Shown here: piece by piece, positions 47,428 to 58,285 of the stretch
How the letters are laid out: every line of letters begins with the position of its first letter
Numbering within the stretch: the first letter of the stretch is position 1
Assembly (NCBI GenBank): GCA_017511045.1
Contig: JAFWLM010000036.1
Coordinates: forward strand, 1-59,339
Direction: 5' to 3'
DNA: 59,339 nt
From: Lachnospiraceae bacterium
GTDB lineage: Bacteria; Bacillota; Clostridia; Lachnospirales; Lachnospiraceae
Notes under the pieces: generated by a model
The model's database searches: none
What the model was told of the DNA's origin: nothing
The model's input: the letters and a program-made list of their open reading frames with translations, nothing else
Position numbers and translations under genes: made by a program

Positions 47428-47597
47428 AAAAAAGCACAAAATCCTTTAGCATGCTGGAGGATTTTGTGTTGAGGCTTATTTGGGGCAGATTTTAGCATCA
47501 CAAACAGTATAATTAAGCCCAGAATACGGTTGAAAATATGATTAAATTGCGTCCTGCACAAAATCCCTTTGCATGCTAAAGGATTTTGTGCTTTTTT
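47428..47597. repeat. 170-bp element with 27-bp inverted ends
   Basis: AAAAAAGCACAAAATCCTTT and the following AGCATGC at 47428-47454 recur exactly inverted at 47571-47597. Each end can itself fold, because GCACAAAATCC recurs inverted within 25-30 bases on the inner side, giving hairpins with T-tracts pointing outward. The interior has no open frame of note; a TATAAT at 47508-47513 is the only promoter-like string. No target duplication is evident. It may be a MITE or a facing pair of terminators. The rest of the gap 47209-47650 shows only the leader of the acetyltransferase gene; I see no gene in it. Confidence 0.6.
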
Positions 47598-47650
47598 TCT
47601 TCAAATAGTGGGCAAATAGGCGCCATTGGCGTCTTTTTAGCGCCAACCGA

Positions 47651-47748
47651 GGTGAATCCCGCCGGGGCTATCGCCCCTTTCTGGCCGCGTCAGATTCTTC
47701 GCGCTTTCGCGCTCGATTCTTCCTTGTTCGAATCCCACCTTCGAACCA
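47651..47748 (-). repeat. tRNA-linked structured element, Ser copy
   Basis: Downstream of the tRNA-Ser terminator, in minus reading, lies a hairpin (GTTCGAA, seven-base loop, TTCGAAC), the constant string GAACAAGGAAGA, a GCGC-GAAA-GCGC hairpin, CTGACG, and a GGGGC-GATA-GCCCC hairpin. Fourteen bases, 47726-47739, are the exact complement of the tRNA-Ser T-arm strand at 47798-47811. The same order of features and constant strings follows tRNA-Leu at 56392-56494, matched to that tRNA instead. No known RNA family fits that I recognise. Confidence 0.55.
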
Positions 47749-47752
47749 TAAC

Positions 47753-47782
47753 GAAAAAACAGAACACCATCGGTGTTCTGTT
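47753..47782 (-). terminator. Terminator after tRNA-Ser
   Basis: AACAGAACACC and GGTGTTCTGTT form an 11-bp stem with a three-base loop, followed in minus reading by TTTTCG, nine bases after the tRNA 3' end. Confidence 0.85.
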
Positions 47783-47790
47783 CTTTCGTA

Positions 47791-47876
47791 CGGAGAGGGT
47801 GGGATTCGAACCCACGCGCCCTTTCGGACAAACGGTTTTCAAGACCGCCTCGTTATGACCACTTCGATACCCCTCC
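47791..47876 (-). tRNA. tRNA-Ser (anticodon TGA)
   Basis: The 86-base gene folds as a class II tRNA: 7-bp acceptor (GGAGGGG with CCTCTCC, discriminator G), anticodon loop CTTGAAA with TGA for UCA codons, a long variable arm (GTCCGAAAGGGC) and T-arm GGGTTCGAATCCC. The 3' CCA is not encoded. Confidence 0.95.
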
Positions 47877-47909
47877 GGATATATGTTGCGCTTTTAAAGC
47901 GCGATGCTT

Positions 47910-56132: not shown

Positions 56133-56290
56133 CAGTTCACAAAATTGCCACCCCTTGTTCTCTATGTTTTAGGAGTGGCAAAAATGTGAATTCATTAAAA
56201 TGTTGCCCGAAAGACTTCTTTTTACTGTTTTTTTCTAAAAAAACAGCTTCCGCAGGGGTGGCAAAAATGTGAACTCCTAAAAAAGTTGCC
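56133..56290. repeat. IS21-end-like composite repeat, copy 2
   Basis: It has the same build as the copy at 9378-9537: inverted half motif 56133-56155, direct motif 56171-56208, direct motif 56254-56290, with the same 15-base hairpin loop and 83-base period. The intervening 45 bases also correspond (an ACTGTTTTTTT/AAAAAAACAG hairpin). It lies between prfB and the tRNA-Leu trailer in a 510-base gap with no gene. Confidence 0.7.
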
Positions 56291-56311
56291 TGTCTCGAGA
56301 AACTCCTTTGC

Positions 56312-56401
56312 TCCTTGTTCAAGTCCTGTCTTTGAACACAGTAAAATGCAAGAGGCATGCCACTGGCATGCCTCTTGCATTTTATGCGGGCGACAGGACT
56401 T
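56312..56401 (-). repeat. 90-bp perfect direct repeat, distal copy with tRNA-Leu 3' fragment
   Basis: These 90 bases are identical to 56468-56557, 156 bases away. In minus reading they begin with the last 17 bases of tRNA-Leu (56385-56401 here), continue with a 17-bp perfect hairpin (GCAAGAGGCATGCC and complement) and end in the anti-T-arm string. The tRNA fragment cannot form a tRNA. Confidence 0.85.
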
Positions 56402-56494
56402 CCACCGGTGCCTTCGGCACCTTTCAGGGCACCGTCAGACTTTTCGCTCCCTATGGAGCTCAAGTCTTCCTTGTTCAAGTCCTGTCTTTGAACA
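56392..56494 (-). repeat. tRNA-linked structured element, Leu copy
   Basis: In minus reading it has hairpin TGTTCAA/TTGAACA, the constant GAACAAGGAAGA, a stem AGACTT/AAGTCT enclosing GCTCC/GGGAGC, CTGACG, a GGTGCC-GAA-GGCACC hairpin, and AAGTCCTGTC. The 14 bases 56473-56486 exactly complement the tRNA-Leu T-arm strand 56548-56561. Its order of parts is the same as in the Ser copy at 47651-47748. Confidence 0.55.
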
Positions 56495-56557
56495 CAGTAA
56501 AATGCAAGAGGCATGCCACTGGCATGCCTCTTGCATTTTATGCGGGCGACAGGACTT
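56468..56557 (-). repeat. 90-bp perfect direct repeat, proximal copy
   Basis: This copy includes the true 3' end of tRNA-Leu (56541-56557), the long perfect hairpin that may end its transcript (TTTTACTG is a weak T-tract), and the anti-T-arm string 56473-56486. It is identical to 56312-56401, so the duplication is recent or kept by conversion. Confidence 0.85.
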
Positions 56558-56620
56558 GAACCTGCACGGTTTCCCACTAGATCCTAAGTCTAGCGCGTCT
56601 GCCAATTCCGCCACGCCCGC
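56541..56620 (-). tRNA. tRNA-Leu (anticodon TAG)
   Basis: The 80-base gene has acceptor GCGGGCG/CGCCCGC with discriminator A, anticodon loop CTTAGGA with TAG for CUA codons, a short variable arm (GTGGGAAACCGTG) and T-arm CAGGTTCAAGTCCTG. CCA is not encoded. It lies 36 bases after the foldase gene and may be read from that transcript. Confidence 0.93.
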
Positions 56621-56656
56621 GTATCAGCACGCCCTGAGACGTGCTTTTTTGCTTAT

Positions 56657-58285
56657 TTATTTCGTTGTAGTCTCTGTTTCTGTTGAAGCTGCTTCACTTG
56701 AGGTTTCTGTCTCGGTCTTCTGATCCACAAACACAACATCATCCTCAAGGGCTTCCATTGCAAGGTCAAACTTAAACTCTAAGTTCTCATACAGATACAG
56801 CCAGGTATCTCCGGACTGGGTTTTAAACTCCTCTACGGTGTAGCGCTCAGAATATCCGTTGCGCGCCATATAAAGAGCGATGGACTGATCCAGTTCCTCA
56901 TCCGTCCAGCTGATCTTTTTATCTTTGATGATCTTATCTACCAGCATGATGGTATCCAGATAATAATGTGCTTCTTCTGTAGCATATGCATTCGCATCCG
57001 TGTAGCCATACATAACAGCATATTCATCCGGAGTCGTTCCGTACATTCCTGCGTAGTAGTCGAGGGAATCCATGGAGTATTGGATCAGCATAGCTTCTGC
57101 TTCTTCATCATAAGAAATAGCCTTTTCTTTGCTCTGGATGTCTTCGAACATTGCAGTATGCAGATAATAATTATAAATATAATCGTGTACATACTCTTCC
57201 AGTTCCTCAACAGTATTTAACTGTTTCTCAAGGTAATTCGAAGAATAGTTCTTTACAAATTCATCTGTCAGTTCCGGAGCAACAGTCTCGGACTTATAGT
57301 TGATGGTAACATCAAATGTTGCCGGCTGTCCTGCAAGAGCTGTACTCTGATAATCTGCAGGGAAGACTACATTGATCGTTTTTGTCTTTCCGATCTCAGC
57401 GCCGATCAGTCCGGATTCAAATCCATCGATCATCATACCGCTTCCGATCGTTAAGGACTGGCCTGTTGCAGTTCCGCCTTCAAAAACTTCTCCGGTAGAC
57501 GCCAGTTTTCCGACATAATCAATGTTCAGCTGGTCGCCTTCTGCAACGATTCCTTCTGTTACCTGTTTCGTTTCAGACTGAGTCTGAAGGATATTGGTGA
57601 TATACTGCTCGACCGTTGCGTCATCGATTGCAACTGCGTCTTTCAGGACTTCGATTTTGGAATAATCCCCAACTTCGATTTTTGCTTTCTGCTTAGGTGT
57701 AAACCAGCCGGATTTATATCCGACAAATGCCAGACACGCAAGTACAATAACTGCGCAGACAACGATTACGATCACGTTTGTCTTATCCAGTTTCTTTTTC
57801 TTTTTGATGATCGGCGGCTCTTTTACGGATGCACTTTTCTTTTCGGTATCCGCAATTACTTCCTCTTTTTCGATTTCTGCATCAAGTGCTTCCTCAGCAG
57901 CCTTTTCTTCTTCAATCTCTGCTTCTTCGACTGCGGAACCGGCAGCTAAAATATCAGCACCGATCTCTGCTGCATTTGCGCTGATCTCCTCAGCCGCAGC
58001 ACTGCCTTCTGCAACTTCAGCAATGTGCTCTTCCGCGATCTCCTCAGCTGCTTCTGCTGTATTGGCGATTTCTTCAGAAGTAACTTCTTCTGCTGTTTCT
58101 TCTGCAGCGATCGCTTTTTCTACAGCCTCTCTCTCAGCAATTTCTGCTGCCTCATCTGCCTTTTCCTGAGCAACTGCAATGTCTGCTGCGATTTCTTCCG
58201 CTTCAACAACAGCATCTTCTACTTTTGGCTCAACCTGTTCGCCGGCAGCTTCAGCAAGTTCATCTAACTTCTTGTTTTCGTCCAT
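56657..58285 (-). CDS. Membrane-anchored trigger-factor-like FKBP peptidyl-prolyl isomerase
   Basis: The 542-residue protein begins with about 150 residues of Glu/Ala-rich, strongly acidic and probably helical sequence, then a Lys run and one membrane helix (residues ~171-190). Outside follow an FKBP domain (LNIDYVGKLASTGEVFEGG, IDGFESGLIGAEIGKTKTI) and a helical trigger-factor C-terminal-like region, with a Thr/Glu tail. There is no ribosome-binding domain of true trigger factor. It likely folds secreted proteins at the outer membrane surface; the acidic cytosolic arm has no known role. GAGGTTATATAG precedes the start. Confidence 0.8.
   Translation of the reverse strand: MDENKKLDELAEAAGEQVEPKVEDAVVEAEEIAADIAVAQEKADEAAEIAEREAVEKAIAAEETAEEVTSEEIANTAEAAEEIAEEHIAEVAEGSAAAEEISANAAEIGADILAAGSAVEEAEIEEEKAAEEALDAEIEKEEVIADTEKKSASVKEPPIIKKKKKLDKTNVIVIVVCAVIVLACLAFVGYKSGWFTPKQKAKIEVGDYSKIEVLKDAVAIDDATVEQYITNILQTQSETKQVTEGIVAEGDQLNIDYVGKLASTGEVFEGGTATGQSLTIGSGMMIDGFESGLIGAEIGKTKTINVVFPADYQSTALAGQPATFDVTINYKSETVAPELTDEFVKNYSSNYLEKQLNTVEELEEYVHDYIYNYYLHTAMFEDIQSKEKAISYDEEAEAMLIQYSMDSLDYYAGMYGTTPDEYAVMYGYTDANAYATEEAHYYLDTIMLVDKIIKDKKISWTDEELDQSIALYMARNGYSERYTVEEFKTQSGDTWLYLYENLEFKFDLAMEALEDDVVFVDQKTETETSSEAASTETETTTK

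Follow-up and report, generated by a model that had tools for sequence, protein, structure and literature searches.

MITEs and REP-type repeats are short, folded, non-coding sequences that are present in many copies. For the repeats behind the tyrT gene of Escherichia coli we know of no settled explanation. The corresponding family of Enterobacteriaceae, RtT (RF00391), is found in E. coli and in Salmonella, there behind tRNA-Pro, and a tandem G.A motif has been reported for it (PMC7657543). Here we describe units of the same plan in Lachnospiraceae, at two loci of a 59,339-nucleotide stretch of DNA (the window; contig C142 of the source genome G000, a 2.04-Mb draft that is 80.85% complete) and at tRNA and tmRNA genes of related genomes. 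The original prediction for the window had been made without knowledge of a described family of such form; RtT is one. On balance, and with modest confidence, we read the unit as an RtT-like mini-element of tDNA that is probably able to spread and in which each host gene serves as the template for rewriting the mirror copy.

Two tRNA loci of the window

The Ser locus (47,649-47,877) contains the following features.

47790..47877, - strand: tRNA-Ser(TGA), the host gene, with its T-arm 14-mer at 47798-47811 (ARAGORN; Rfam RF00005)
47751..47789, - strand: terminator palindrome separating tRNA-Ser from the unit, with arms 47751-47768 and 47772-47789 (inverted-repeat search)
47726..47746, - strand: small hairpin GTTCGAA-GGTGGGA-TTCGAAC opening the type A unit (predicted fold), found at other type A loci too
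47726..47739, - strand: T-arm of tRNA-Ser copied in antisense (GGTGGGATTCGAAC on the - strand), exact at 14/14
47659..47725, - strand: core, AAGGA...GGCGG (model R1 match 47649-47746; covariation in the type A alignment)
47649..47658, - strand: site of the direct T-arm copy, decayed to GATTCACCTC (best 5 mismatches of 13)

The 14 bases at 47726-47739 are the exact reverse complement of the + strand of 47798-47811, with the terminator palindrome in between, just as had been predicted. Their + strand, GTTCGAATCCCACC, has the same letters as the T-arm strand of tRNA-Ser(TGA). In the core, helix P1 is formed by 47715-47720 and 47692-47697 with one mismatch, and helix P2 by 47673-47677 and 47664-47668. 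Two strings had been proposed to be constant. One of them, GAACAAGGAAGA, is found only twice in the window, in both units (47718-47729 and 56465-56476, both on the - strand); the other, CTGACG, occurs at 17 sites of the window, so that this string alone says little.

Downstream of the Ser unit lies an inverted-repeat element of ~170 bp (47428-47597), MITE-like in look, with arms that are 90% complementary. A similar element is found at C51:443-620 (L015), within a decayed array behind tRNA-Leu(AAG). It is also noted that mechanical ORFs on the + strand (47586-47858 and 56286-56723) run through the antisense T-arms and the units; such ORFs are a likely source of spurious protein annotations.

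The Leu locus (56,134-56,620) is built from the following features.

56541..56620, - strand: tRNA-Leu(TAG), the host gene, with its T-arm 14-mer at 56548-56561 (ARAGORN, Rfam)
56498..56540, - strand: terminator palindrome separating tRNA-Leu from unit 1 (inverted-repeat search)
56473..56486, - strand: antisense copy of the tRNA-Leu T-arm in unit 1, GACAGGACTTGAAC, exact against 56548-56561
56402..56472, - strand: core of unit 1, AAGGAAGACTTGAGC...CACCGGTGG (model R1 match, arm alignment)
56385..56401, - strand: 3' end of tRNA-Leu copied in direct orientation, AAGTCCTGTCGCCCGCA, preceded by GGTGG in place of the GTTC of the tRNA
56342..56384, - strand: second copy of the terminator (repeat search)
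56290..56337, - strand: truncated unit 2, with a GTTCAAA hairpin, an antisense copy (56317-56330) and then GAACAAGGAGCAAAGGAG... (repeat search)
56312..56406, - strand: 95-bp block repeated at 56468-56562, 98% identical, 156 bp from start to start, a tandem duplication of the unit

The tRNA-Leu locus thus has its own matched 14-mer, 56473-56486 against 56548-56561. The T-arms of the Ser and Leu tRNAs differ at 5 of 14 positions and each downstream copy fits its own tRNA, in agreement with the original prediction. In the direction of the tRNA, the order at both loci is tRNA, terminator palindrome, GTTCRAA, antisense T-arm and constant core. The antisense 14-mer was correctly recognised at the outset but is one half of the design: what had been overlooked is that the unit closes with the tRNA 3' end in direct orientation (AAGTCCTGTCGCCCGCA, 56385-56401), and that this closing copy is decayed in the Ser unit. 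A third copy had been counted because of the 156-bp tandem duplication behind tRNA-Leu. The truncated unit 2 resembles a single unit at the same place in a related genome, G310. Between the truncated unit and a prfB-like gene, the stretch 56134-56290 contains two further repeats, one inverted (22 bp) and one direct (37 bp).

Occurrence, layout and fold of the units

Further copies next to tRNA genes were sought in the source genome and its relatives, by searches with patterns and models, and were found. In the source genome, a hairpin pattern search gave two more loci, behind tRNA-Leu(AAG) on contig C51 and behind tRNA-Ser(GGA) on contig C78, with units in tandem at both; the tandem units on C78 have different terminators and nearly identical cores. 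A fifth locus, at tRNA-Gly(CCC) and with a longer core, came from testing each T-arm for an inverted copy. This test covered 48 tRNA genes called by ARAGORN in tRNA-match regions, with up to 1,500 bases downstream (several genes had less, and one tRNA-Tyr entered with a mislocated T-arm). An inverted match to the gene's own T-arm, with at most 2 mismatches of 14, was found at five of the 48, four of them exact; all five are the units described here, which is more than chance. Beyond the tRNA-Leu(AAG) units, at L015 640-850 (G000:C51), core fragments that lack tRNA tails form a decayed array, repeated in tandem with a period of 59 (2.5 copies).

Model R1, made from four units, gave 37 matches at E<=0.1, distributed over 10 of the 14 genomes of the genus. 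When their contexts were read, 34 of the 37 lay downstream of a tRNA or tmRNA gene, L112 being counted as behind tmRNA from the gene recognised in the identical L145. The remaining matches stand at contig ends (L099/L179 and L176) or after a copied tRNA 3' end only (L106). The host genes are Ser, Leu, Gly, Val, Arg and Lys tRNAs and tmRNA. A core pattern free of T-arm letters matched 41 stretches in a collection of genome contigs. Nineteen of these are units, all with taxon labels of Lachnospiraceae, Blautia or Eubacteriales; 17 stand behind tRNA or tmRNA and two (L125, L141) are cut at a contig end. By eye, ten of the 19 are genus loci already counted and nine are new. The other 22 stretches do not have the unit layout, and only L150 has a tRNA within 700 bases, on the opposite strand. 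The tmRNA arrays are tandem in L116, L140 and L148, and many loci have a single unit.

Model R2, made from 15 type B units, matched in 10 of the 14 genus genomes and in 4 of 116 genomes of the order (G000 included). The four loci outside the genus, behind tmRNA and tRNA-Leu, belong to three genomes, one from another genus of the family and two from another family; their antisense arms have 2, 2, 0 and 1 mismatches of 14, and the direct copy is free of mismatches over its 13 bases at each of the four loci. The strict type A pattern matched in G000 only among 299 genomes scanned, and the core pattern in G000 and G219 only among 397, a scan of exact patterns that misses units, as G180, present among the 397, was picked up later by R2. 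At the gathering cut-off, Rfam gave nothing in the window beyond the two tRNAs. A permissive Rfam search of four loci (L140, L148, L134, L058) returned tmRNA and tRNA above the cut-off and 39 matches below it, which we read as chance. A literature search, whose poor coverage of subscription papers makes it no proof of absence, found no description of the Lachnospiraceae element.

The plan of the unit runs from the 3' end of the gene, just after GTTC, usually through a terminator, to the antisense T-arm, the hairpin core, GGYGG and a direct copy of the gene 3' end. From gene tail to tail copy the length is 137 to 185 bp in the 30 units measured. The break lies in the T-loop, between GTTC and RA in the gene and between GGYGG and RA at the unit end; of 31 aligned units, 29 have GG(T/C)GG ahead of the direct copy and two have GGAGC. 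Two types can be distinguished. Type A, found at Ser and Leu tRNAs only, opens with the hairpin GTTCRAA-antisense-TYGAAC, and its single P1 helix contains a GA/GAA internal loop. Type B combines GAACAAGGAGGGAGC with two hairpins ahead of CCTGAAAGG and occurs at tmRNA, Gly, Val, Arg, Lys, Ser and Leu. Both end alike, with the GC-rich hairpin P2, GGYGG and then the gene 3' end.

In six of eight tmRNA units (L105, L116, L134, L135, L140, L148) the antisense arm extends through the acceptor strand, with 5 to 7 of 7 acceptor positions paired when G.T is counted, so that the gene end, the terminator and the antisense arm make one long palindrome; L108 and L115 are without this extension. The tRNA units lack such a copy of the acceptor part (0 to 4 of 7 or 8 positions). 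The spacer between gene and unit contains a perfect stem of at least 9 bp at 21 of 32 loci; at the others the stem is imperfect by eye, and L149 has none. The terminators of tRNA-Leu(AAG) are strongly different between related species yet palindromic, and both arms seem to change together. At L074 (~1257-1445; G299, behind tRNA-Ser(CGA)) a different insert lies between the tRNA terminator and the unit. At its end stands a longer tRNA-tail copy, with GTTC included, and the insert is possibly another kind of tRNA-tail element.

The fold of the unit is maintained by compensatory change. In 16 type A units, 91.7% of the cells of the structure are paired, compared to 75.5% after shuffling, and 16 of 25 pairs have changed on both sides, compared to 10.9; this count is lowered by row L003, which is off by one base before P2. 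The signal is lost when partner columns are slid. One of five measures is at shuffle level, that of further pair types (31 vs 29.4, 151 of 500 shuffles). P2 is 98% Watson-Crick in 32 units, compared to 79% in shuffled ones and a maximum of 88% in 2,000 shuffles. In helix 1, formed by the antisense arm and the direct copy, 93.8% of cells are paired and 5 of 10 pairs have changed on both sides. Judging from the layout, the antisense arm can pair with the direct copy inside the same unit.

Covariation this strong in the closing helix, P1 and P2 may point to a functional RNA, made by read-through or from its own promoter, whose arm would be under selection for pairing with the direct copy or the tRNA T-arm and which would tune the maturation of tRNA or serve as a decoy for the enzymes that process it. 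Unpaired strings such as GAACAAGGA and TGAAAGG are kept, some cells are G-U, and in the RefSeq annotation the RtT of E. coli is an sRNA that is processed out of the tyrT transcript. However, at most loci the gene is separated from the unit by a hairpin, and units decay or shed parts (the window Ser unit, L092, L102, L113). Moreover, in the 34 rows of the helix between antisense arm and T-arm, the departures C.A (9) and A.C (1) outnumber G.U (5) on the tRNA strand, which would not be a pattern favoured by RNA pairing on that strand. We regard this functional RNA as possible but somewhat unlikely. The two options originally offered, a copying of tRNA ends in inverted form and an RNA selected to pair, both remain as the main rivals. 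It should be mentioned that a tRNA tail copied in antisense downstream of a tRNA gene is, on its own, no evidence of tRNA regulation or of pairing with the tRNA.

Agreement with the host gene and spread of the units

At most loci both copies, antisense and direct, fit the host gene, and the cores resemble one another. With no filter placed on the arm, 33 genus loci found by model were taken, 31 of them with a gene within 400 bases. The antisense arm of these 31 units is exact in 16, within 1 mismatch of 14 in 24 and within 2 in 25; three have no real match (L097, L107 and L112, with 5, 8 and 7 mismatches). The direct copy is exact over 13 bases in 21 of the 31 and within 2 mismatches in 25, and is absent in the tested stretch of L092, L102, L103 (the window Ser unit), L111, L113 and L178. 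A filtered set was taken from 46 rows with at most 4 mismatches to their own gene; removal of 12 without the core string, of L098 and of a second tRNA upstream of L093 left 32 loci. Their antisense arms are exact in 17 and within 1 mismatch in 27, with a mean of 0.66 mismatches of 14 to the own gene vs 3.27 to other T-arms. Out of 18 distinct T-arms, none fits better than that of the own gene at 30 of the 32 loci, and at 25 the own gene is strictly the best. In a permutation test of the own-gene match at these loci, which were preselected at <=4 mismatches, none of 10,000 permutations was as good. Direct copies were found at 29 of the 32 loci, exact over 14 bases in 27, and none was found at three. 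The proposal that the 14-mer tracks the neighbouring gene is therefore upheld, with the three of 31 genus units named above lacking a matching arm.

This gene-by-gene matching, and the antisense arm itself, would be left unaccounted for if the unit were the stump of an integrase-borne genomic island, its direct copy being an att repeat and the rest lost by deletion. Unit length and core are also constant across many loci, and there is no gene between the repeats in the units examined. The T-loop break and the restoration of the gene are as in tDNA islands (PMC4383910). Altogether, an island stump is very unlikely.

The cores themselves bear on how the units came to their genes. In G219, six of seven cores start with CAGG, at Val, Leu(CAG), Lys, tmRNA and two genes beyond contig ends, and the seventh, at Leu(CAA), starts with AAGG. 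The Val and tmRNA cores of this genome are 94% identical and their arms are different; in G299, the SerTGA and SerGGA cores are 90% identical. Among type B cores (n=17, with the Leu(CAA) core of G219 left out), likeness within the same genome exceeds that under shuffled labels (p 0.005), as does likeness at the same gene (p 0.006). Among type A cores (n=16), likeness follows the same gene (p 0.002) and not the same genome (p 0.59). Kinship is ignored in both tests. The grouping of type A cores by host gene implies that much of the family may be old and vertical. It would also suit units that are old and vertical throughout, whose register is maintained by nothing but gene conversion and quasi-palindrome correction and which never move between genes. 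With this account the near-identical cores at different genes (G219 Val/tmRNA, G299 SerTGA/SerGGA) do not agree, nor does the finding that close relatives have different genes occupied, in drafts that are incomplete, and we consider it quite unlikely. Inheritance at one gene and spread between genes both seem to be present, the spread with arms that fit the new gene.

The reading that we favour, a mini-element able to spread, can be put as a sequence of steps. The unit would behave as a minimal element of the tRNA tail, either integrated or duplicating; once the core reaches another gene, the 3' part of that gene would be duplicated. The layout suggests that the antisense copy may be written by strand switching across an inverted repeat, made of the gene end, the terminator palindrome and the antisense end, and later rounds of the same copying would keep the antisense arm matched. 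Strand switching would explain the central terminator palindrome, the complement of the tmRNA acceptor and the arms that fit their genes, with no separate selective reason; tmRNA arms that run through the acceptor strand are as expected of a snapped-back copy. The core may be recognised as single-stranded DNA or as read-through RNA, as suggested by its conserved fold. In a more speculative extension, which we think unlikely, the antisense arm, complementary across the insertion point in the T-loop, would be a guide or splint that brings the core to tRNA and tmRNA genes and is rewritten from every new target, and RtT and the Lachnospiraceae units would be two branches of one widespread but undescribed class of nucleic-acid-guided mini-elements.

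An empty site was sought at 13 prfB loci of the genus and none was found: a tRNA-Leu stands beside prfB in G000 and G310 only, both with units, and the other 11 loci have no tRNA in the stretch examined, some of these stretches being short. Several candidates for a vehicle or origin were rejected. Reverse transcriptase (PF00078) was found in 3 of the 14 genus genomes (G299, G301, G304) and not in the carriers G000 and G219, all of them drafts, and Rfam gave no intron match above the cut-off in the window and four other loci; a derivative of a retron or group II intron is not supported. For an integron-like cassette or a tyrosine-recombinase site, the strand junctions, 4 bases apart, lie on the wrong sides for such chemistry. 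A phage or plasmid vehicle was set aside after few queries: three scans of viral contigs gave 1, 1 and 2 matches, none with a nearby tRNA or the unit layout, and blastn with one type B unit found no match in plasmid or phage collections.

Comparison with RtT and other known systems

To place the Lachnospiraceae units beside RtT, we scanned 12 tRNA/tmRNA genes of E. coli K-12, in stretches selected by position. Units were found at tyrV, proK and serX, and none at proL, ssrA, leuX, serT, leuZ, cysT, glyW, metY and leuU (at least 7 mismatches of 18 in the best inverted match and at least 4 of 12 in the best direct one). The proK and serX units pass the RtT cut-off of 45, at 101.3 and 46.3 bits, and have terminators in front. 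The RtT arms are also closest to their own genes, with 3 mismatches of 18 for Tyr (7 and 7 to the other two), 4 for Pro (6 and 6) and 3 for Ser (7 and 7). A tyrT-type core is present in 4,692 of 5,426 E. coli genomes, at a median of 3 places and at most 10. Against a phage collection the RtT core matched one record, a Salmonella contig.

The two families share their architecture. Both stand downstream of a tRNA gene, RtT in tandem units of ~168-181 bp and the Lachnospiraceae units in tandem at the window tRNA-Leu, C51, C78, L140 and others. In both, the tRNA 3' end is followed by a spacer or terminator (proK, serX), an antisense T-arm, hairpins and a direct copy joined inside the T-loop, and the closing helix of the Rfam model, antisense arm to direct copy, is present in the Lachnospiraceae units as well. 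The tandem G.A motif of RtT has, by eye, a counterpart in the conserved GA / GAA internal loop in P1 of type A units. The families differ in that the RtT arm covers both strands of the T-stem with a central change, whereas the Lachnospiraceae arm covers GTTC and the 3' strand. Furthermore, in our scan RtT was seen at Tyr, Pro and Ser tRNAs and was absent from E. coli ssrA, whereas the Lachnospiraceae units favour Ser, Leu and tmRNA. At the level of sequence, RF00391 reached at best 17.4 bits in the 14 genus genomes, against a cut-off of 45 and with a positive E. coli control. It is not among the E<=5 matches for L140, L148, L134 and L058, and the RtT loci are missed by both R1 and R2. As no homology is detectable either way, we class the unit as RtT-like and not as RtT.

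Genomic islands in tDNA resemble the unit in the T-loop break, the restored gene tail and the displaced tail copy behind the element. They differ from it in that the Lachnospiraceae unit is ~150 bp, lacks an integrase, being at 137-185 bp too small for a gene, and has an antisense tail copy and a structured core. With MITEs and REP-type repeats the Lachnospiraceae units share being short, folded, non-coding and multi-copy; they are distinguished by their tie to tRNA/tmRNA genes and by their locus-specific copies of the host gene. The plan of RtT in unrelated sequence, in another phylum, at many tRNAs and tmRNA and with host-tracking arms, turns a one-operon curiosity into a candidate general class. 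Such a class makes the origin testable, both in how the arms get rewritten and in whether the core moves.
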